A stretch of DNA of 64,000 nt from Asterochloris sp. CNOR1 (lineage: Eukaryota > Chlorophyta > Trebouxiophyceae > Trebouxiales > Trebouxiaceae). Shown here piece after piece: positions 9,801-52,768 of the stretch. How positions within the stretch are numbered: the stretch's first letter is position 1; each line of letters starts with the position of its first letter. The notes under the pieces were generated by a model. It did not search any database. It saw only the letters and a list, made by a program, of their open reading frames with translations, and was not told the origin of the DNA. Position numbers and translations under genes: made by a program. The DNA is taken from assembly GCA_963969365.1 (NCBI GenBank), contig OZ017754.1, forward strand, positions 2,728,001 through 2,792,000, given 5' to 3'.

Positions 9801-12800
9801 ACTCCCTCGGCCGCACTGCTGGCCCCCAGCAGCACGTTCTGGGCGCTGGCGGAGGCAAAGGGGCTCGGGTTCCATGCCACGCGGCGGCGCATGCTGTCTG
9901 TCATGCGTCGCCCGTCGCTGTCACGGTCTGACGGCCTGTCCAGGTCTACGCTGGCCGCCTCCAGAGGGGAGTGGGCTGGGTCCCACCCTGCCTGCCCCTT
10001 CTGCAGCATGACACTGCCTGAGAAGCTGGGTCCCACCCTGCCTGCCCGGTCTGCAGCATGACACTGCCTGAGAAGCTGGGTCCCACCCTGCCTGCCCGGT
10101 CTGCAGCATGACACTGCCTGAGAAGCTGGGTCCCACCCTGCCTGCCCCTTCTGCAGCATGACACTGCCTGAGAAGCTGAAAGCTGATAAACTGCTTCGAC
10201 CAGAATGAGATGGTGGCCAGGTGACATTTCTTGCCAAGTTTGCACAAAGGGGGTTGTGCTGGGACCCCAGCACGGCCCTCAGCAAGCGTACAGGCTTTTG
10301 TGACCCCTTGTCAGCTTTGGTCCTGGCCAATCCAGGTATTTATTCAGAGCCTGCCCCATGGTCTTCTGGCAGGCCCCCAGCAAGCAAAATGCCTCTTAAG
10401 GACCCTTCTACAGCTCTGGTCACGGCCGGGTCAAGCAGTGTTTGAAAAAGCCCCACGTGCCCCAGTCAACCCCAGTCAACCCCAATAAGCTTGGTCAAGC
10501 GCTGTTTATGAAGGCAGGCGCAGGCAATGACCCAGGCAGCAACCACCTTGGTGCCGGCCACCTGCAGGCTCAGCAAGGCTTCCCTGCGCACGCACTGGTG
10601 GCACGATAGACCCTAGACAAGCCCCACCTCTGCAGCCATCCCTCGCGCCAACGGGCCCCTGTCCTCCTCAGGAGAGCCCTGCGGCTCTCTTCCCTGCACC
10701 AGCAGAGCTGGTTCGGCAAACCTGGCGCGCGCAGGGGTGGTGGCTGCAGGGCTGCCAGGGTTTGACGCAGGGCCAGGGTCTGGCTCCCCGCCGGGGCGCC
10801 CCTCCCGCGTGGGGCTGGTCGGCGGGCTGGCAGAGCTCAGGATGGAGCCCTCCTCGTCGATGGGAGCAGGGGCCCTGCTGCAGAGAGGCAGCAGGGTATG
10901 TCAGCGCATGCCAAGTTCCCATACTGGGGGCCACCGCTCCTCAGGCTGGCCCACAGCTCACACCCCTGTATGTACAACAGCCTGGAAGGGCTGTAATGCT
11001 GTCTCCAACCCCCTGCAGCATGTCAACACAAGCATACCCGCCAGCTGCACCATAGCCTCACACATGCAGCCACTTACTGCAGGCCTAGTACACCTATGTC
11101 CCTGACAGTTCACCTTGACCTCTCGTGCTGGAAGTGCTTGCGCGTGCACATCAGGCCTATCAAGCAGCTTTTGGGCTTACAGGCAGCTCCATTGCCAGGC
11201 AACCACTGCTCCAAAGGAAGAGGCATCGCCAGGTCCAGTGCACAACACAGCACCATGTACATGACAGCATCCAAGCATCTGGCTGCATGCAGGTGCCTGT
11301 CAACATGAATGTCAACAGATGCTTTGGGCGACCATGTGGAGCTCACACAACTGTTTACATCAGGCTATTCTAGCTCACCTGCGCCTCTCCCCCAGACCCA
11401 GCTCCGTGGCACAGCGCAGCAGGTCAATGGATGGGCGTCCATCAGCGTGGGGCTGTGTGGCTCCTGCAGCCGATGTGATCATCCAGTGAGTCATCCAGCA
11501 GTGAGTCATCTGGCTACCATGGCCAGCACGCTGTCTTTGTACCACTTGCTGCTGACATGGCCTCAGGCATAAAGCTCCTGAAAACAATCTGCACCCACGC
11601 ACCACCACTGCCCGACAGCAGAGCACATGATCGTCTCAGCAGAACCTATACAGAAGCAAGCATAGCAAGGCAGAGGGGCTTGCCTTTCAGGCCACCGACT
11701 TTCCCGCTCCGGGAGCCAAAGGCACTGTCCAGGATGGGTCCCCCACCTGCAGAGGCGCCGCGCTCGTGCTTGCTGCCTCTCGCAGCAGGGCCTGTGGAGC
11801 CATAGGGGTTGAGGGCGGCATGGCTGCTGGAGCTGCGGTGGTGGTTGCCCCGTGGGGCAGCGTCCTGACCCTGCAGAAGGGGACAAAGTTGTGAGAAACC
11901 ACCTGCGCACTGAGACACACCTTGCCAGAACGATTCCGTTTTCTGTATACAACTCTTGGTACTGCCGGCCATGTATATGACGCTCCCTACACTATGTGCT
12001 GATGCTGCCAGTGCAGCCACCCAGAACAGGAAAGTGATCCCTGCACCCAGCCCACATGTAGGCATCTCTTGCTGCTTCCACAATGCAGACGCTTGATGCC
12101 TGCAGGCCTGAAGTGTAGCCTGCGCCTCTGTCAGGCTGGGTTCAGGGAGGCCAGGCTGACCTTGTTACCTCCAGCCAGCCATGCATTGCAAGCTTGGGGC
12201 ATCTTTCTGCTCAACACGTGCCGCCATGTAGCCAGCCCTCTTACCTTTTAAGCTGGGGAGGTCAGGTTGACATATTTGCCTCGATCGAGAGGTGCAAAGC
12301 AAGCGTTTTGCTCAAGCATAGAACACCACCCCCGCAAGCCCTCTTGCCTGCCAACTTGAATGCATGAGGTCCACATTGGGCCGTTCTACAGACGCGCGAA
12401 GCCCGCGGCCTGGTGCACTCCTGACATGTTCCTAATCAGCAACTTCAAAAGCTGCCCACCTGCCAGGCTGAGCGCATGGAGGCAAAGTTGGACTCAATCT
12501 CCAGCTGTAGAGGAGCTGTCGCCGGCTGCACCCACAAGCAATCGTGTCCAGCAACTTCACAGGCTGTTCACCTGCCAAGCTGAGCGCATGGAATCGGTGT
12601 TGGACTCAGTCTCCAGCTGTGGGGGAGCGGCCGCCTGCGCCATGCGCACCACCGCAGCTGCCTGGCTTTGAAGCTCTGCCTCGCTGCGCTGCCCACCGCC
12701 AGCGCCACTGCCCAGGGATGGTGTTTCCGCCTCCGCCTGCTGCAAAATGCAGTGCAGAATTGAGCCTGACCAGTCTACTGCTCTACATTTAAGCACAGCA

Positions 12801-44688: not shown

Positions 44689-45283
44689 CGAGGCAACAAG
44701 GTGATAGGGGTAAGATGATAGGGGCAAGATGGACTTCACGGCTAGGTTTACAGCTGCATTGCCCCGAAGTAGAAAGCTGTGGAGTCTTGAACGTTGCGTT
44801 GGGCAGGGTGTGTACAACTCACTTGAAGTCTGGCATGATCGGTCGTGGTGCCACTGCAAAGCCTCGCAACGTTGCGCGTTAATGATCTGATTTGAGCTCC
44901 TGCATGGCAGCCACGTCAGATTCAGAACATTCTCAAAGGATGCAAAGCCCTGACTCACAAGACAATCCACTGCTAATCAGTGTTACCAGATCTCTCTCAC
45001 CTGGTGCGGTACAAAGTCTGCTGTGTTGATGTCTTGCTTTGGTCTGCTGGCTTCGGCCCTGCTTGTGCCGGGGAGACTGATGTGTTATTCTGATAACCTA
45101 TAATAAGCCATGTAACACCCTGCGACAAGGCGTGAAACTTAAAGGCCTGCTTCGCGGCAGAACGCAGTCATGGTGCTCATGCCCATCGTAAGACTTCTTG
45201 AAAGTGTTTGAAGTTCTATCAATGAGCTTAGGCCTGTGTGCCTACTTAGAGCTTTTCAATCTCAGTCCATAGGAAAGCAGGCT
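44689..45283. other. Intergenic region with a small inverted repeat
   Basis: AT-richer spacer between the divergent CHRD and HUH-like genes. It includes gttat-tctg-ataac near 45084, a 5-bp inverted repeat, and 'cctataataagcc' just after. This is a plausible promoter region for both genes. No ORF seen. Confidence 0.4.
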
Positions 45284-46372
45284 ATGACGAAGTCCAAGCC
45301 AGGCAGCGGCAAGAGGCAAGACCGCAACTTCGAGATTGTTGTCAACCACATCACCACCTCTGAAGACCAGCTGCCTCAGGTCTCGCGGCAGAGCATGGCA
45401 GCTCTGAAGGATGTCTTTGGACACAACATCAAGAAGTACTCAGGCACTCTTCACCACAAGCCAGGCAACGAGCATGTACATTTCCTTGTGATGTCTGAGG
45501 CTCCTAAGACCAGGAGCGCTGTCAAAGCCAGTATTGCTGCCTCTATGGCACTCGTCTTTGGCACACAGACTGACTCTGTGGAGGTCAAGTTGTTCAATGA
45601 GTTGAAAGCAGATGCTGGACCAGCTAATGGCCTGAGGGGGCTTGGCAACTACAGGTCGCTGTACGTGAACAACAACGAACATGAGAATCACCGCCCGAAG
45701 GATCCTGAGCACAGGACAGTGGAGTTCATGTGCGGAGGAGAGTGGGGAATCTCACATGGAGGCGCCAGAATTGGTCCTGGGCGGCAAGGCCCAGTGCAGG
45801 TGGCCACAGCAGCTATCAAGGCAGGAACTCCGGAGTTGCAATGCAAGTCGTATGACGAGTTCCAGCGTCTGCTGGAAGCCGCCGCAGAAAGTGTGGGTTG
45901 CACAACGAGCGCCTTGCCAAGGGTGTTGGCCAAGAGCTCTTTTGGCACAGTGCCAAAGCTTAAGGAAGGCAACCTGATTCACAACCCTGCCTATGATGAG
46001 GAGGAGTTCAAGGCCCTCCCAAAGGAGCAGCAGACTGTCCAGCAGAAGCGCTCCATGAAGTACCTGCAAGGCCCTAACGGAAGCCTGCGAGAGGAGTCAC
46101 TGGTGGTCGCTCATAAATTTCTAGAGGCGCACCCTCCTGACTTTTATCGATTCAGGCTTCTTGAGCCTGTCAGGAAGTTACAATCTGGACGTGGCAACCT
46201 GTCAATCGCCAAGCTGAGGCAGCATTATGAGGATGCATTCATCAATCCGTTCGAGGACTACGTAGTCCTATACCCACCTCCTGGATGGACGGCTGGTCGT
46301 GCGCCAGCAAGGTCATGTATCAGTTACAATCTGCCGGCAGCTGTTATTGCTGATGTGATGAAGGCCAGATGA
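45284..46372 (+). CDS. Intronless ORF with a possible HUH endonuclease (Rep-like) domain
   Basis: A single uninterrupted ORF in a region where every other gene is split. It is open from 45236 (378 aa); I prefer the ATG at 45284 (362 aa), which precedes the basic MTKSKPGSGKRQDR. From that start: a beta-strand-like FEIVVNHIT (16-24); NEHVHFLVMSE (62-72) with His64-x-His66, the HxH arrangement of HUH nucleases; and NYRSLYVNN with Tyr123 and Tyr127 as candidate nucleophiles. There is no Walker A motif, so no fused helicase. HUH proteins cleave one strand at a hairpin origin and initiate rolling-circle-like transposition; Replitrons are such elements described in green algae. Direct repeats and a palindrome follow the ORF. 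The HUH call rests on short motifs only; an unrelated unknown protein is possible. Confidence 0.45.
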   Translation: MTKSKPGSGKRQDRNFEIVVNHITTSEDQLPQVSRQSMAALKDVFGHNIKKYSGTLHHKPGNEHVHFLVMSEAPKTRSAVKASIAASMALVFGTQTDSVEVKLFNELKADAGPANGLRGLGNYRSLYVNNNEHENHRPKDPEHRTVEFMCGGEWGISHGGARIGPGRQGPVQVATAAIKAGTPELQCKSYDEFQRLLEAAAESVGCTTSALPRVLAKSSFGTVPKLKEGNLIHNPAYDEEEFKALPKEQQTVQQKRSMKYLQGPNGSLREESLVVAHKFLEAHPPDFYRFRLLEPVRKLQSGRGNLSIAKLRQHYEDAFINPFEDYVVLYPPPGWTAGRAPARSCISYNLPAAVIADVMKAR

Positions 46373-46557
46373 TGCAAGCATGTTTACAAGATCATGAAAT
46401 TGTTTGAATCACGTGATTCAGATGGTGCACCATGCCACAGCACAGGTGTGGACAGCGCACCCACGTACCCACACCGTATGACTTTGTAACAGATGCACAT
46501 ATTGCGCGAGTGCAGCCCATTTGAAGCCCCCAGGAGGTCCTCTTTCGCCACCAGGGG

Positions 46558-46766
46558 TTCAAGTGTAGCCGATGCCAGGTCCAAAAAGCCACTGCATGTG
46601 TTGGTCAGGCCAGCTCCCTCAGGTTGATACTTTCAAGTGAAGTTCAAGTGTAGTGGAACCTTTGTTGTGCAGTGGCAAGCCAGAAGTGGTTGATTGGCCC
46701 AGAGAAAAGGGTTACGCGGACATGCAGATCTTCGATACATGTAGACCAAGAGTGTTTCAAGTGTAG
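46558..46766 (+). repeat. Iteron-like 11-mer TTCAAGTGTAG, three copies
   Basis: Exact TTCAAGTGTAG at 46558-46568, 46643-46653 and 46756-46766, all in the same orientation, plus a TTCAAGTGAAG at 46632. Spacing is 85 and 113 bp. The last copy is 8 bp before the palindrome. Its binding partner is unknown; the HUH-like protein is the obvious candidate. Confidence 0.7.
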
Positions 46767-46773
46767 TCTGTCA

Positions 46774-46800
46774 GGGGGCAAGCCTTCAAGGCTTGCCCCC
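46774..46800. repeat. 13-bp perfect stem, 1-nt loop palindrome
   Basis: GGGGGCAAGCCTT, one C, then its exact reverse complement. As DNA it can form a cruciform, and as RNA a stable hairpin. Near-palindromes this long are rare by chance. Its position after the HUH-like ORF and iterons suggests an origin or 3'-terminal hairpin of a rolling-circle-type element. Confidence 0.85.
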
Positions 46801-46817
46801 CTGCTTGAGATCTGATT

Positions 46818-46880
46818 TTGTGGAGTGAAATGTCACTTTCTGAGTGAAATGTTACACCGCTCAGTAAAATATGACTTTCA
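46818..46880 (+). repeat. ~20-bp direct repeats after the palindrome
   Basis: 'ggagtgaaatgtcac', 'tgagtgaaatgttac' and 'tcagtaaaatatgac' start at about 46820, 46840 and 46861, three degenerate copies with a 20-21 bp period. Confidence 0.65.
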
Positions 46881-46956
46881 GCAGAGACATGTGACCTGTG
46901 CAGGTAAATGGCGGTAGGAATTGTCAAAGCAGATCAGCAAACAATCAAAGGCTTGC

Positions 46957-49944
46957 TCAGCCGCTCTGCTTACGCTTGCCAAGCAGCTTGGAATCACTGC
47001 TGTACCTGCTGCATAGCTGCTGGAGTGAGCTGACTGTCCTGGTTGCGGGGATGCGCTCACGTTCCATTTCTAAAGCCCCGACAACAGCAGCCATGGTGCT
47101 TCCCAAGGCACCCATGCGGGTTTCAACCTCAGCAGCAAGGCCATTCTTGAATCTTGAGAAGGCCATGCTGCTGGCTCTTGCTTCCTTCTTGCTGCCATGC
47201 CACCTGCGGAAGTCTGAAGGCACCGCTGAGACCTTGGAAAACGCCTCAAATGCTCCTGGGACTGTTTGAAATTCGGAGAGCTTCCAGACCTGCAGCTCAC
47301 ACGGGTAGGTACAGTCTGACCAGTACACAGGCGCTCAAGCTGAAAGGCGATTGACTGCACACCTGCTTCTCGAACAAAAAGGAGTCCCTCTCAATCGAGG
47401 CACTTAGCGCACTGAGGGACTGAGGCGGCAGAGTAACACCATAGCTGGCCTGTGAAGCCAGAGGCACCAATGGGATGGGTTTGGCTGATGCTGGAGGCTG
47501 AACACCGGAAAGTGGCACCTGAGGCAGCATCACCACCGGGGCAAAAGGCATAGGCGTGGCCCCGTTTCCACCCAGCGTCTTGAAGAAGAAAGCCTGCAAC
47601 ATTAAAGGGCAAAGGTTCAGAAGAGCAATGCATGTCTGACTACAACACCTAGGGGCCGCAGCGCTCACCGTTGGGTCGGTGTGAAACAAAGCTCTGTCGC
47701 TGAGGACCGCCTCAGCAGCAACGTGTTTGTCCTTTGACTCCTGCCGCAGCTGCTTGCCTACAGCACTCTGCAGAAGGCGACTGGCAGCTGGCGGGATGGT
47801 GCGGAGCCACTGGTTCCCATATGAATCAATTCTCAAGCTGGCATTCTGCACAAACACTTGCCGCAGGTGGTCGATGGCCCTCAAGGGCGCCAGCAAAGGA
47901 TGTGCAGGGTGACATCGCATGTTAGCTTGGCGCAGGAGCACTGTCAAGCCTGGGATGATGCGGTCCAGCACATCCTCCTCAGCCTGCAGAACACAACCAG
48001 ATCAGTCCCCCCCTCCCCTGGTTTTGGTGGTTTGCGTGAGAAGCGCTGGCACTGCAGTGACCCCACCTTGAACTCAGCTTGGCCCAAACGATGATTCTCG
48101 TGCCAGTCCCGTCCCCAACCAGCCAGCCTGTGGGCTGTGTCCGGGTCAAAGATGCAATACAGGTCTGTGGTGTCAGACTCATGCCTGCAAGGCAAACACT
48201 GGTCAGCTGGGGACAATCCTGTTCAGAATGCGCAGCATGGCCTGAGTTGCATACCTTGCCGCCATCTTGATCTCCGCTTTGTTAATGCCCACGCTCTTAG
48301 CAGCCTCCACACCATGCTTCTTAAATTTGTGGCTGACCTCCCCTTTAGCTGAGTACCCATCAAGCCTGCCACAGGGCACGCCTGCGGTGTAACAAGCCAC
48401 AGATGTCACCAACAGCGGTGTCCAAATGCTGCAGCATCAACGCACTGGCTCACCAGCAAGTTGAAAAGCCTGCCGAAGGTGAACATTGAGAGTCTCCCCA
48501 CTCATCGGCTGATTCCCCTGCATGCTAGGGGCGGCAACAATGAAGTTTGATGCCTCAAGTTTGATGCCTCTGTGGAAGGTGGCGACAGCCAGGTCGGCAA
48601 GCGCTGCCTGAGGACAGATGCGATGGTCTCGGTACCTGTGGCAGAGGATGCATATTGACTGAGAACACAATGCAGCACACTGCCCAACTGCGTCTGACAG
48701 CATGAATGCGCATACCTGACAACACCAGGAATATCCACCTGCCCAGGCTTCACAGTCTTCCCCTGCATGCTACCAAAGAGGATTGCCACGGAGGGCACTG
48801 GGCCCACATTATCTGCGTCCTCAGTGCCAGGCAACTCCAGGGAAGCTTGCGCAGGTCATCAGAGCGGCCCAAGGTGGCTGGCATGAACGTCATCGCCATC
48901 CTCAGCAAATAGGCCCACTGCCACTGCTTCTGCTGGAAAGCTGTTTGCAGGGACTGGCGAAGCTGCCTTGCGCTCAGTGCGGCATCCACCTGCAGATGCA
49001 AGCAACAAGCTGGGGTCAGACACGCCATCATTCAATCTGCACAAGACGCTCTGACCAGGCTGATACCCACCTGAGCTGCCACTTGCGCATTGAGGTTCTC
49101 AGCCTGCATCTCCTTGCCACGTGCACGGAGCAAGTCCCTAACTGCCTGGATCTCCAGGGGTGCAGGTACATCTGAGGTGATGCGGCCCTGGGTGTACTGC
49201 TCTCTGCGGACTTCCTTGAGGTGGCACAGATAATCACTGCATGCACCAGGCCAAAAGTCGGGGAGGGCGGGACATGAGCGCAGCTCAGACACAGCAGGGG
49301 AAAGGCCTCTCACCCCACGCTGCTGAACGAGTAGCGAGCACCATTCCGCTGCACTGCCTCGTCCACAAGCCACATCGAGAACTCAAGAATCTTGGCCTGA
49401 GACATGATGTCGCCATCAGGGGACACCATTTGCTCACAGTATCTCTGCAGGATCGGGTTGGTGTGAGTGACATGTGCCTTGCAAGCATCAAGGGCGCCAT
49501 GAAGAACGGGATCAGAGGCCATGCGGAGCTTACCCTCCAGAGCTTGGCAGCAGACCTTTCAGCCTGGGCTGTGTTCTGTGGCTTAGCCGCAGCATGACGG
49601 ACATTGATGAGCTGGTTGAGCCGTAGGATACGAGTGTCCTCCTGAGGAGTGTTAGGCATGGCTGCTGCCAAGCCAACTGCTGCCTCTGGGACTGGTGCTC
49701 CATTCTGCTGGCCCCAGGTCACTAAACTGTGCACACAAGGGGAAGAGGCCGGCACTGGCTGGAGATCATCCACCAGTCCAGAAAGGTGTCTGCAGGCTTG
49801 ATCAATGGCCGCTCTGAGGGGAGGGGGGCTGTTTGGGGAGCAGCTGGCATGCAGTTGTGCAATGTAGTCATCAGCCAGCCCCAGGCTGATGACATGGTTG
49901 ATGTAGGTGCTGTACTCAGCAGAAGATACCTGGTAGTGCTGCAT
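46957..49944 (-). CDS. Crypton-like tyrosine recombinase, two apparent frameshifts
   Basis: A YR-type transposase read right to left. Exons: 49313-49944, 49071-49236, 48716-48989, 48454-48635, 48255-48381, 48067-48184, 47669-47983, 47363-47593, 46957-47289, with matching phases at most joins. Catalytic pattern: Arg in TLGRSDDLR (exon 3), HxxK in VSHKFKKHG (exon 5), His and Tyr in ARHESDTTDLYCIF (join of exons 5/6), i.e. R-HxxK-H-Y. ILFGSMQGKT and RDHRICPQAALADLA resemble the Crypton/Ndc10-type core. The first exon changes frame near 49530-49560 (after ERSAAKLW) and exon 3 near 48845 (after DDLRKL), neither with a visible intron. This suggests a decayed copy or assembly indels. The start is the ATG at 49944; an in-frame stop lies just upstream. 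The C-terminal 200 residues are unassigned. Confidence 0.65.
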
Positions 49945-50176
49945 GAAGGTGGATCTGGAAACTTTGGCGCGCTAGGGTTTCTTGACCTAGTGCTTAGGGA
50001 GGCAAAACTGAGACGAACCTAGCTGCTGGTGACTGTAAGGCTCAGCAGACAACTTCTTCGTCACTTGTACTTTCAGTAAGCCGGTAATCATCTCTGACAG
50101 CAAGTAAATTTTCGTGTGCCTTTTCGCTGACCTCTGAGCGCACAGCTGCACCTGTGTACCGGAAACTGTTTTGGAG
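49945..50176. promoter_or_regulatory. Divergent intergenic region (recombinase / nuclease-like gene)
   Basis: 232 bp between two divergently oriented start codons, so it must contain both promoters. It is AT-richer than its flanks. I see no repeat or canonical TATA box that I would name. Confidence 0.4.
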
Positions 50177-52182
50177 ATGGTGGACAACAGACAGCTGGCC
50201 ATAGATGCTCTTCTTCAGCTGGAAGGAGAAGAATGGAGGGATGCTGCATTGGCTATGCTGTACAGCACAAGCCATGGTGCTGATCTGCAGCAGCTGGTCC
50301 TGGACCTACGCAACACTGCTGCACTGGCTGGAGCAGTCAGGGCCTTTGTGTCTCAGCATCAAGCAGGTGTGTCGCTGTTTCCCTGGGTGCTGCCTTCATG
50401 CTGAGATGCGCTGTGCGCTGGAGCAGTCTGGTGGGTGGCTTGCCAATGCCACCCAATTGCCGTGGCAACACGGGTTTAGAGCGCATGCCTACAGGGCTGC
50501 TTGCGATGGCAGGCAGCGTGCTGAGTGTGAGGCGCTTCACGTACCCATGAATCTTGAACCCAAAATTGTTGTCGTGAACTGGTCATGCATCAGCGGGCAA
50601 CGTGCACTCTCTGGAGCCTTTGATACGTGCAAACAGTGGGTGCAGGACCTCCTCATCTTCAACTTCCGCCAGACCTTGAGGCCTTTCTGAGGGCTGCCAA
50701 GATCAAAGCCGAGACCGTCTTAATCTCTGACGTCTCCACTGGTGTCTTGGATGTGGTGACGACTAAAGGAGGTGAGAGCCTCCTCGTGCTGCCTGTCTGA
50801 GACCAGCCATATGACCCTGGTGGCAAGCTCAGGTACATGCTGCCATCCTTCTGCAGAGCTGACAGTGGTGTTCAGGGAGGAACCTATTACAGTTGTACCA
50901 AGGCAGAGGGTGGAGAGCTTTGATTGGGATGATAGGTTGGAGAAGGCCCAAGCTGACCGTTACATGCCAGTCTTAAACAGGCTGATGGGTTCAGGCGACA
51001 GGTGAGGGGCTCCAGGGGCACGTTGGGAAGCAACAGTATGTATAGCTTTGCAGACCCAGCCAAATGTAAGTAAGCTGCAACACAGAGATGCAGGTCCACT
51101 GTTCTGATAGATGCTGCCAACCATTACTCAATCCTGTTGAGCCATGAGGGGCTCCAGGAGCAGCTTGGCTACAAATTTAGGGGCACCACTGGTGTGGCTG
51201 CTGTTACCCGGTTGTCACTCAACAACAACTTGCCTCAGGTAAGAAGCCTAACTCCTGCATACGCGCATACCCCACATATGAGCCCATGATGACCAACTTG
51301 GTGCATGCTGCAGTTTGGACTTCGACTGCTGTTCGAGCTCAAAAAGACCCGCAAGCCACATCATGCACGACAGGCCATGTTGACATTGCTGCTGGCAAAC
51401 ATCCACTCTCCGGGGTGAGCTTGATGCAGCAAGCCTTGGGCATGTCTGCTTTGACATGCCTTCATGCATTCGCACTCCTGTCTCAGCCACGTGCTTTCTT
51501 TGCAGGTTTAAGCCTGTAGTGGTGTTGACAGACTTGCGCAGCGAGTACACCTTCTACTGGCTTGACGGGCACACCATTCATGTATACAATGCTCCAGATT
51601 CCAGTGCAGCTTGGGGACTGATCGATGCACTGCTCGGCAGCGAAAAGGTGGTCACGGGAGGCGTGGAGCTCATAAAAGAGGAAGAAGCCCTGATTCCTGT
51701 TGCCAAAAGGCAGAAGCTTGTCCTGGGGCAAAGCGCCTCTCAGCAGGAAGTAGGCAACCTCTCTGATCTGGAAGGCCTCATAAGTCCCGAAGAGCTGCAT
51801 GCAGCTCATGTAAGCCAACTTCTTCAGCAATTCCATAGGTTACCTGCTTTGGAGGCTGCCAGATCAGACATCATCAACACCTTGTATGTGTAAGACAATA
51901 CCTGTATGCCCTTGTTTCCTTCAATGCTGTAATAGCAGGGTGCCTGCTCCCAAGGGACGCCTCATGCTAGACCTGCACACTCCAGCAGACCAGCGGCAGG
52001 CTTACTCTGTACAGTGGCACATCGTTGCCATTGCAAAAGCCATCCTTGGTCTGCAGGTGCTGTGCTTTGCAAGCCTTGCTGATGCAGTACAGTTGTCAAC
52101 CTTAGGCTTCACAGAGCTGATCTGCGCTGTTGGCCGCCAGCGGGGCTGCCAGATGTTCCTGTATGGGTCTGGGTTCTTTTGA
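50177..52182 (+). CDS. Crinkler/PD-(D/E)XK nuclease-like protein
   Basis: Seven exons join in frame to about 433 aa: 50177-50366, 50673-50771, 50857-51001, 51094-51238, 51314-51414, 51506-51883, 51939-52182. The middle is the informative part: STVLIDAANHYSILLSHEG, then GLRLLFELKKTRKPHHA (the ExK half of a PD-(D/E)XK site), a helix, and KPVVVLTDLRSEYTFYWLDG. This succession resembles the C-terminal nuclease-like domain of Crinkler/RHS-type proteins found in algae, oomycetes and other eukaryotes. I do not see a convincing upstream catalytic Asp, so activity is uncertain. No signal peptide and no recognisable ubiquitin-like header. It is divergent from the tyrosine recombinase, 232 bp away. The last exon could instead be spliced at 52056 (ctgcag|gtgctg), which would change the C-terminus. 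Confidence 0.5.
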
Positions 52183-52768
52183 CAGGCTCGACGTCTGGTC
52201 CGCAGCCAATCTGAAGCAGCACTTCAATGCACTCGCTGCCTGGCCTCAACAACAAAGGCTTGCTACTTGCTCTTTAGCTTGCAGATAATCACATGGCCTG
52301 CGACATGTTGCGGGGTGTCTGTGAGTATATGACATGTTGCGGGTGCGTCACACAGCCTGTGATATCGTGACATGTTGCGGGGTGTCACATAGCCTTTGAT
52401 GCTAGGACAGGTCGCAGAGTGTTACATGGCCTGTGATAATATGACATGTTTCATTCTTGGCCCATATGGCATGCCATGTATACGTTCGCTCAATCGCATC
52501 ATTGGCTGCCCATGTGCCTGCTTCCGTGCCCACCCTGCTCTCCCCACAGCATGGAGAATAAAACCAGAGCTGTGGGCTGTCATGGACCTGTCATTTGTTG
52601 GCTTGAGCTGCATGCAATTGATGAAAGTCCTGTGTTCATTGTGGAAGCACGACTCAGCAGGCATGGATGCCTCGTCAGGAATCTGCTCACTTCTTGTGTC
52701 CAGCTGTGAAAGGAGGGCCTGAGGAGGGAAGGAGGGGCCAACAGACAAGGTTAAAAACTGGGGCAAGC
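52183..52768. other. Intergenic region with a repeat array
   Basis: Separates the nuclease-like gene from the 3' end of CPSF160. The left half is the 29-38 bp repeat array listed next; the right half shows no feature I can support. Confidence 0.5.
52290..52455 (+). repeat. ~37-bp tandem array (GACATGTTGCGGG)
   Basis: GACATGTTGCGGG at 52302, 52331 and 52369, degraded copies at 52406 (gacaggtcgcaga) and 52443 (gacatgttt). Units also carry 'cacatggcctg(t)gat'. Periods are 29, 38, 37 and 37 bp. It marks the right boundary of the accessory island. Confidence 0.8.

Follow-up and report, generated by a model that had tools for sequence, protein, structure and literature searches.

The 64-kb window, by which we mean the whole stretch of DNA that was analysed, harbors a copy of a mobile element whose conserved core consists of a HUH gene and a tyrosine recombinase (YR) gene with 10 exons. 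Comparison of the copies by sequence gives this element defined ends, two linked genes that are both under purifying selection, fused junctions between right and left ends, and one permuted monomer. On balance we lean toward reading it as a Crypton-like element that would excise as a circle by means of its YR and that would carry its own HUH initiator and origin. A preliminary description of this DNA had proposed a HUH-type mobile element of 1.6 kb (45236..46900) with its terminus or origin at 46.55-46.90 kb. The fold, the mobility and the origin-like block of that proposal hold up, but its extent and its terminus do not. The features of the window copy are collected in Table 1.

Table 1. Features of the element copy in the window, with positions counted from the first base of the 64-kb stretch.
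Feature	Position	Strand	Basis
Window copy of the mobile element, ~7.36 kb	45095..52450	+	left boundary common to 21/21 copies; 7 other complete copies compared; right core and last right-end repeat degraded
Left core, AACCTA in the window	45095..45100	+	exact GACCTA at 16/21 left ends, one base different at the other 5
Left arm GCCATGTAACACCCTGCGACA	45107..45127	+	imperfect inverted repeat of the right-end repeats
Intronless HUH/Rep-like gene, 362 aa, HVH 64-66, Y123 and Y127	45284..46372	+	ORF, alignments, fold model, median dN/dS 0.29
Iteron block: TTCAAGTGTAG at 46558, 46643, 46756 and TTCAAGTGAAG at 46632	46558..46766	+	sequence, copy alignment
Origin-like palindrome	46774..46800	+	sequence, simulation, copy alignment; some other copies break at the apex
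Crypton-type tyrosine recombinase gene, 10 exons	46957..49944	-	copy comparison; window copy broken by exon 4 frameshift; NDC10_II
Internal GACCTA palindrome, second half degraded in the window	49984..50000	.	common homology stops 15-44 bp past its first base in 112/120 copy pairs
Variable cargo region	50001..52300	+	most of the window cargo has strong matches (88-89%) at two other places; matches elsewhere are partial
Right-end tandem repeats, unit mostly 37 bp, GACATGTTGCGGGGTGTCACATAGC...	52302..52450	+	copy comparison

Copy comparison gives a length of 7.3-13.8 kb, with the window copy running from 45095 to about 52450. The hairpin that had been taken for a possible terminus lies inside the element: 20 of 21 copies stay homologous past it, and six of the eight complete copies end at a GACCTA 7-14 kb downstream. 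Homology between copies persists far past 46900 in the alignments, and a HUH-only element of 1.6 kb ending at the hairpin is ruled out by inter-copy homology that reaches the YR gene and beyond.

The direct repeat at the ends of the element is the 6-bp GACCTA, and it is framed by imperfect inverted repeats of ~22 bp. When the window copy was aligned to 20 others, which are among the best-scoring matches and no random sample, the left boundary fell near window position 45095 in all 21. Exact GACCTA closes 10 of the 12 right ends examined, and the right-end repeats of the window are found again 7-15 kb downstream of several other copies. The eight complete elements (the window's and seven assembled from overlapping pieces) measure 7345 to 13842 bp; their right ends are built of two to five tandem repeats at a spacing of mostly 37 bp, each an imperfect inverted copy of the left end. 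Two of the eight have a degraded right end, namely E021 and the window's, in which the repeats stop near 52450 without GACCTA. In copy L022, whose fused junction is the sole one scored, the two arms pair at 19 of 22 bases. As far as can be judged from sequence, the element ends show the anatomy of a tyrosine-recombinase element. The search for genome copies and empty sites that the preliminary description proposed yielded many copies but an empty site at none of three loci tried: for two canonical copies and for the permuted copy described below, the sequence obtained by joining the flanks matched only the locus it came from.

The copies also differ by insertions. In L011, L012, L013, L015 and L016, about 1.06 kb of extra DNA, absent from the window copy, separates the left end from the HUH ORF; no ORF longer than 102 aa was seen in this DNA in L015. 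Additional DNA is found between the hairpin and the YR gene in L009, L010, L014 and L025-L027 (about 0.8 kb in L009, 3.8 kb in E027), and in E009 and E027 the origin region appears a second time after it, in decayed form.

The HUH gene is a single uninterrupted ORF, as had been described, of 362 aa from an ATG or 378 aa from a GTG at 45236, and the HxH and YxxxY motifs noticed earlier are indeed there, as HVH at residues 64-66 and as Y123/Y127. At least 126 matches of the protein were found in the same genome (56.4 Mb in 21 contigs; 113 of 156 candidates scored), in agreement with the proposed mobility and high copy number; 28 of these are free of stops over 342 or more of the 362 residues, and the others are shorter or broken. 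Among 25 aligned HUH proteins H66 and Y127 are kept in every one and H64 and Y123 in 24; both conserved tyrosines follow the HUH strand, with the place of Y127 in the structural model being of low confidence. The maximum dN/dS is 0.68 over the 262 of 300 pairs with dS >0.05 (the median is given in Table 1), and between the window and L009 the ratio is about 0.37 in frame versus about 0.57 and about 1.35 in the two wrong frames. By these ratios the HUH gene is under purifying selection.

The lack of a fused helicase was likewise described correctly, the single 362-aa ORF having no Pfam match. No sequence library recognised the protein: Pfam gave nothing, a PDB sequence search gave one match at E 0.72, and five PHROGs families were matched by one to three of 20 members (best E 0.093). 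The phages returned one match at E 0.1 that covers 19% of the query, and no relative was found among them; none was found either in viral contigs, prokaryote genomes or plasmids by pattern-based scans, which work best for close relatives. Within the genome, locus L049 (C16:1797000-1801000) contains a more distant relative, 61% identical, as an open 371-aa ORF, possibly representing a second family.

The full-length structure model of the HUH protein is poor (mean pLDDT 46.7); its residues 11-110 (block means 62-88) have the order E-H-E-E-H-E, with HVH on the third strand. For a 155-residue domain (window 45314-45778) one of five models reached a pLDDT of 73.6 and a pTM of 0.72, the other four scoring 39-50. 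In this one good model both histidines sit on the strand formed by residues 54-61 of the modelled piece, and the beta-alpha-beta-beta-alpha-beta palm with HUH on its third strand is present, with low TM-scores to known structures. Foldseek against the PDB places papillomavirus E1 DNA-binding domains, Vientovirus Rep and circovirus Rep at ranks 1-6, two of them at E <=0.001 (best 4.4e-4, to an E1 DNA-binding domain) and with TM-scores of 0.30-0.41 by query length. Further down, Rep proteins of AAV and geminiviruses, a REP-hairpin transposase and an SIRV1 protein are interspersed with unrelated proteins, AcrB and eIF4E among them. Against viral models 22 matches reach E 0.001, three of which are named replication-associated proteins, the others being unnamed or uncharacterised. 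The domain model and the structure matches agree with the earlier suggestion of a Rep/HUH fold with both histidines on one strand: the N-terminal domain of the ORF is predicted to have the HUH/Rep fold, and the protein would presumably nick DNA.

The YR gene lies between the hairpin and the cargo on the strand opposite to the HUH gene, and its exons were taken from aligned copies. It is open throughout in four of 18 spliced copies (E011, E027, L012 and L017); the other 14, including the window's, have frameshifts, stops or missing exons, and two of them, L010 and L014, in addition run off the end of the DNA retrieved for them. In the 10 pairs that can be formed from five copies, one of them with a stop, dN/dS is 0.15-0.36, a range indicating that this gene, too, is under purifying selection. 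The protein has a tyrosine recombinase domain: Pfam NDC10_II was matched by three of three open spliced proteins with a best E of 0.0013, all with scores that fall short of the curated cut-off, and the catalytic piece of the L017 protein matches it at E 1e-4 over profile positions 21-295 of 317 with 22.0 bits versus a cut-off of 26.3. MTES_1575 appeared weakly in one of the three proteins (E 0.079; E 0.033 for the piece). GCR1_C had no Pfam match up to E 10 in two C-terminal pieces, the likeness being one by eye only. The NDC10_II profile found no match in the raw genome; this result is uninformative, because the control genomes gave none either. No chain was found with the YR profile in the PDB, no match in NCBIfam, and no relative in viral contigs by a pattern-based scan that works best for close relatives. 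By eye, we take the catalytic set to be R (GRSDDLR), K (QGKTVK), H (SHKFK), H (ARHES) and Y (DLYC), with the second catalytic arginine presumably replaced by lysine. We infer that the recombinase would be catalytically active.

The two genes are linked. We assessed their linkage for the 53 best-scoring of the at least 126 HUH matches, the 73 lower ones being left out, against the YR matches, of which the genome has at least 283, without the last four of those listed. At least 39 of the 53 HUH matches are accompanied on their 3' side by a YR on the opposite strand no more than 4 kb away, and at least 45 when the distance is extended to 10 kb; these counts are lower bounds, as they cover the YR matches listed. 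Among the YR matches listed, none lies within 4 kb on the 5' side of the 53 HUH matches, and one same-strand YR lies on the 3' side.

Downstream of the HUH gene, the three exact repeats that had been described recur near the hairpin as TTCAAGTGTAG, with TTCAAGTGAAG just ahead of the second, and the perfect 13-bp hairpin with its 1-nt loop is present as well. Direct repeats exist, but they are not 20 bp long: they are 14-nt copies, 93% alike and spaced 19 nt (46823-46855). The hairpin is the sole perfect inverted repeat with arms >=13 and a loop <=5 in the 64-kb window, and 10 simulated first-order Markov windows had no arms >=13 and, in one case, arms of 11. Triple 11-mers within 230 bp are common in the window, with 53 such 11-mers; the 40 of them that were listed all lie away from the iterons, most in a 50-bp tandem array near 10 kb (9975-10170, about four units) that is unrelated to the element. 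Iterons and hairpin are conserved between the 21 aligned copies. Of these, 19 have an undamaged inner stem (CAAGCCT/AGGCTTG) and 16 have four TTCAAGTG, the number being one to three in the others; the hairpin is lost in L018, and the homology of L022 stops at the hairpin apex. The copy alignment supports the proposed origin-like block, and, since hairpin and iterons are internal to the element, they look like an origin and not like a terminus. The HUH protein would be expected to bind the iterons.

Past an internal GACCTA site, which is usually part of GACCTA-N5-TAGGTC, most copies carry differing cargo. This palindrome occurs at 60 places in the genome versus five for the reversed pattern. 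The cargo boundary was compared in 16 copies, giving 120 pairs, after two of 18 copies in which the site was not found had been dropped. Eight exceptional pairs have homology that stops at 49-590 bp; these include the close relatives E011/E013 (368 bp) and two pairs (L024/window and L012/L019) for which the fetched stretch itself stops there. Ten cargo or insert ORFs were scanned, of which one matched ATPase_2 (E 1.8e-11), one was kinase-like (E 1.5e-5), and eight matched nothing up to E 0.1. The AAA-type ATPase (ATPase_2) and the kinase-like protein are cargo ORFs of two elements (L044:321-1409 and L041:1321-1764), and other cargo ORFs, as we presume from inspection by eye, resemble NTPase/nuclease modules of Crinkler-type proteins. 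In L022/L056 and in L023, inverted right-end repeats directly follow the internal GACCTA palindrome. The inverted repeats after the palindrome in L022 and L023 hint at recombination between cores, and in L022/L056 and L023 the cargo has the look of a unit flanked on its two sides by opposed recombination sites.

At L012, L022 and L037, a right end is fused to a left end through a single GACCTA. L022 (C4:2901842-2909514, 7673 bp) is a permuted copy that contains one HUH and one YR gene: it begins and stops at the hairpin apex, and its interior holds the element's right and left ends joined at one GACCTA. For a circle opened at the hairpin, the upstream YR part of L022 is predicted to start near C4:2901860, and it was observed to start at C4:2901842. 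The two parts match L017 at 96.7% and 97.6%. The ends have up to CCTGCA in common; alternatively, both flanks hold CACCT, which would be a 5-bp target duplication. The permuted structure is what one would see had a joined-end circle been opened at the hairpin. Searching the genome for half-origins gave 51 left and 62 right halves in 45 pairings, with seven left and 17 right halves partnerless, two of which are the permuted copy. In the 18 stretches examined for the other partnerless halves, most turned out to be pairs with more mismatches than the search patterns allowed; L060 is without a hairpin. Two further partnerless halves, in L019 and L024, lie where alignments run through the hairpin. 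The 21 copies compared and the half-origin search together contain one fully permuted copy only.

Junctions within 1-3 bp of the apex were found at three further loci, L065, L075 and L037; two of these are local duplications, the third is a deletion. In L065 the sequence restarts at the apex, and the paired locus L075 has a 218-bp duplication starting at the apex. In L037 (C9:1464800-1466000), the second of a tandem pair, the left end is followed by a jump to 3 bp past the apex, with the HUH gene deleted. The partial copies L063, L064 and L069 begin 20-38 bp before the apex. One explanation for breaks at this place is that the HUH-fold protein has lost nicking and is an origin- or end-binding protein like papillomavirus E1, which binds origins and does not nick, so that the apex breaks would reflect palindrome breakage and end joining. 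This is unlikely: the E1 DNA-binding domain is the best fold match, and the palindrome looks fragile, being lost in L018 and L060 and forming the end point of the L037 deletion; however, H64 is kept in 24/25 and H66 and Y127 in 25/25 aligned proteins, and to produce a whole monomer bounded by the apex, either two breaks would have to coincide or a circle would have to be linearised.

If, on the other hand, the HUH protein were the real transposase, Replitron- or Helitron-like and acting from the hairpin, while the YR only resolved or integrated occasional products, then one would understand why the permuted copy ends at the apex, why its flanks both hold a CACCT readable as a 5-bp target duplication, and why the junctions of L065, L075 and L037 are at the apex or within 3 bp of it. 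We nevertheless consider this scenario quite improbable, given that 20/21 copies are homologous past the hairpin and share the left end common to 21/21, that 6/8 complete copies end at GACCTA, and that a YR lies within 10 kb of at least 45 of the 53 best HUH matches. Still less credible is that L022 consists of two tandem copies, each truncated independently at the hairpin, as single-GACCTA tandem junctions do exist elsewhere (L012, L037) and apex-ending deletions do occur (L037), but this would require two breaks, each no more than a few bases from one and the same apex, that leave exactly one monomer.

In the Crypton-like element with its own HUH initiator, the reading that we prefer, the YR would recombine the GACCTA cores at the two ends, and the element would be excised as a circle that the YR could reinsert at a GACCTA-like site. 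The single-domain HUH initiator would bind the iterons and nick the hairpin, and the nicked circle would be copied by rolling circle before reinsertion. Occasionally, insertion of the circle, or of a linear replication product, opened at the hairpin would produce a permuted copy. Crypton-style circle formation fits because ends, fused junctions and a recombinase are present, and a rolling-circle origin on the circle fits because a HUH gene, iterons and a hairpin are present; the permuted copy ties the two together, as it would be a joined-end circle opened at the hairpin. The rolling-circle copying, and likewise which enzyme would have made the permuted copy, are matters that we infer, and the element is presumably active. 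If the model holds, circles should contain fused GACCTA junctions, and a covalent nick should be found at the hairpin. A more far-reaching version, plausible but one that we adopt only tentatively, is that the element is a nuclear counterpart of bacterial integrative elements, with excision by the YR, multiplication of the circle by the HUH protein at the hairpin origin, re-entry by either enzyme, and cassette swap at the internal core.

In bacteria the pairing of a tyrosine integrase with a HUH relaxase or Rep is usual, ICEBs1 being an example. The window element would work like such integrative elements in having an integrase, a HUH protein with an origin, a circle and cargo. Unlike ICEBs1 (PMC4595007), it resides in a nuclear genome with introns, and no transfer genes were recognised in the few cargo ORFs scanned; and unlike elements of this type it has no HUH relative that we found in phages, plasmids or prokaryote genomes.

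Among eukaryotic elements, the relevant part of Kojima and Jurka (2011, PMC3212892) derives Cbf2/Ndc10 from CryptonF, gives CryptonF 6-bp terminal direct repeats, and for Cryptons in general mentions a proposed circular intermediate and a composite Crypton, MarCry-1_FO. The window element resembles CryptonF in its NDC10/CryptonF-related tyrosine recombinase and its 6-bp terminal direct repeats; it differs in carrying a second, unrelated enzyme (HUH) and an origin-like block, in the ~22-bp imperfect inverted repeats that enclose its core, in its long variable cargo, and in that GCR1_C was not detected by Pfam. With Replitrons it shares a HUH protein without a helicase and, going by what PMC10741241 says of the work of Craig (2023), short direct terminal repeats, which in Replitrons are 5-11 bp long. 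The direct terminal repeats of the window element are explained by the linked YR. Compared by description, its size (7-14 kb versus the 0.9-4 kb reported for Replitrons) and the inverted repeats at its ends argue against a simple Replitron assignment, and in the copies compared the HUH gene was not seen as a separate unit with its own ends.

Helitrons end in 5'-TC and CTRR-3' and lie between A and T. The part of PMC4778049 consulted for Helraiser describes TC/CTAG ends, a HUH enzyme, a hairpin with a defined role, and circular intermediates. The HUH enzyme and the hairpin of the window element, and the circle that we propose for it, recall these features; unlike Helitrons, it has no helicase fused to the HUH ORF, it has GACCTA and not TC/CTAG at its ends, and it carries a YR. 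In the titles and abstract openings of the open-licence literature we found no eukaryotic element described with both a YR and a HUH protein, and none is named in the parts of PMC5718144 and PMC8226300 used here; to this limited extent, the pairing of the two in a nuclear element appears to be new. If our reading is correct, an onboard rolling-circle initiator would, for this family, be a direct answer to the question of how Cryptons, which seem to move by excision and integration, gain copies, and the element would provide a eukaryotic system for site-specific integration with replaceable cargo. It would also join two classes of eukaryotic DNA elements, Crypton and Helitron (Rep/HUH), that the standard classification, as given in the portion of PMC5718144 referred to, keeps apart.
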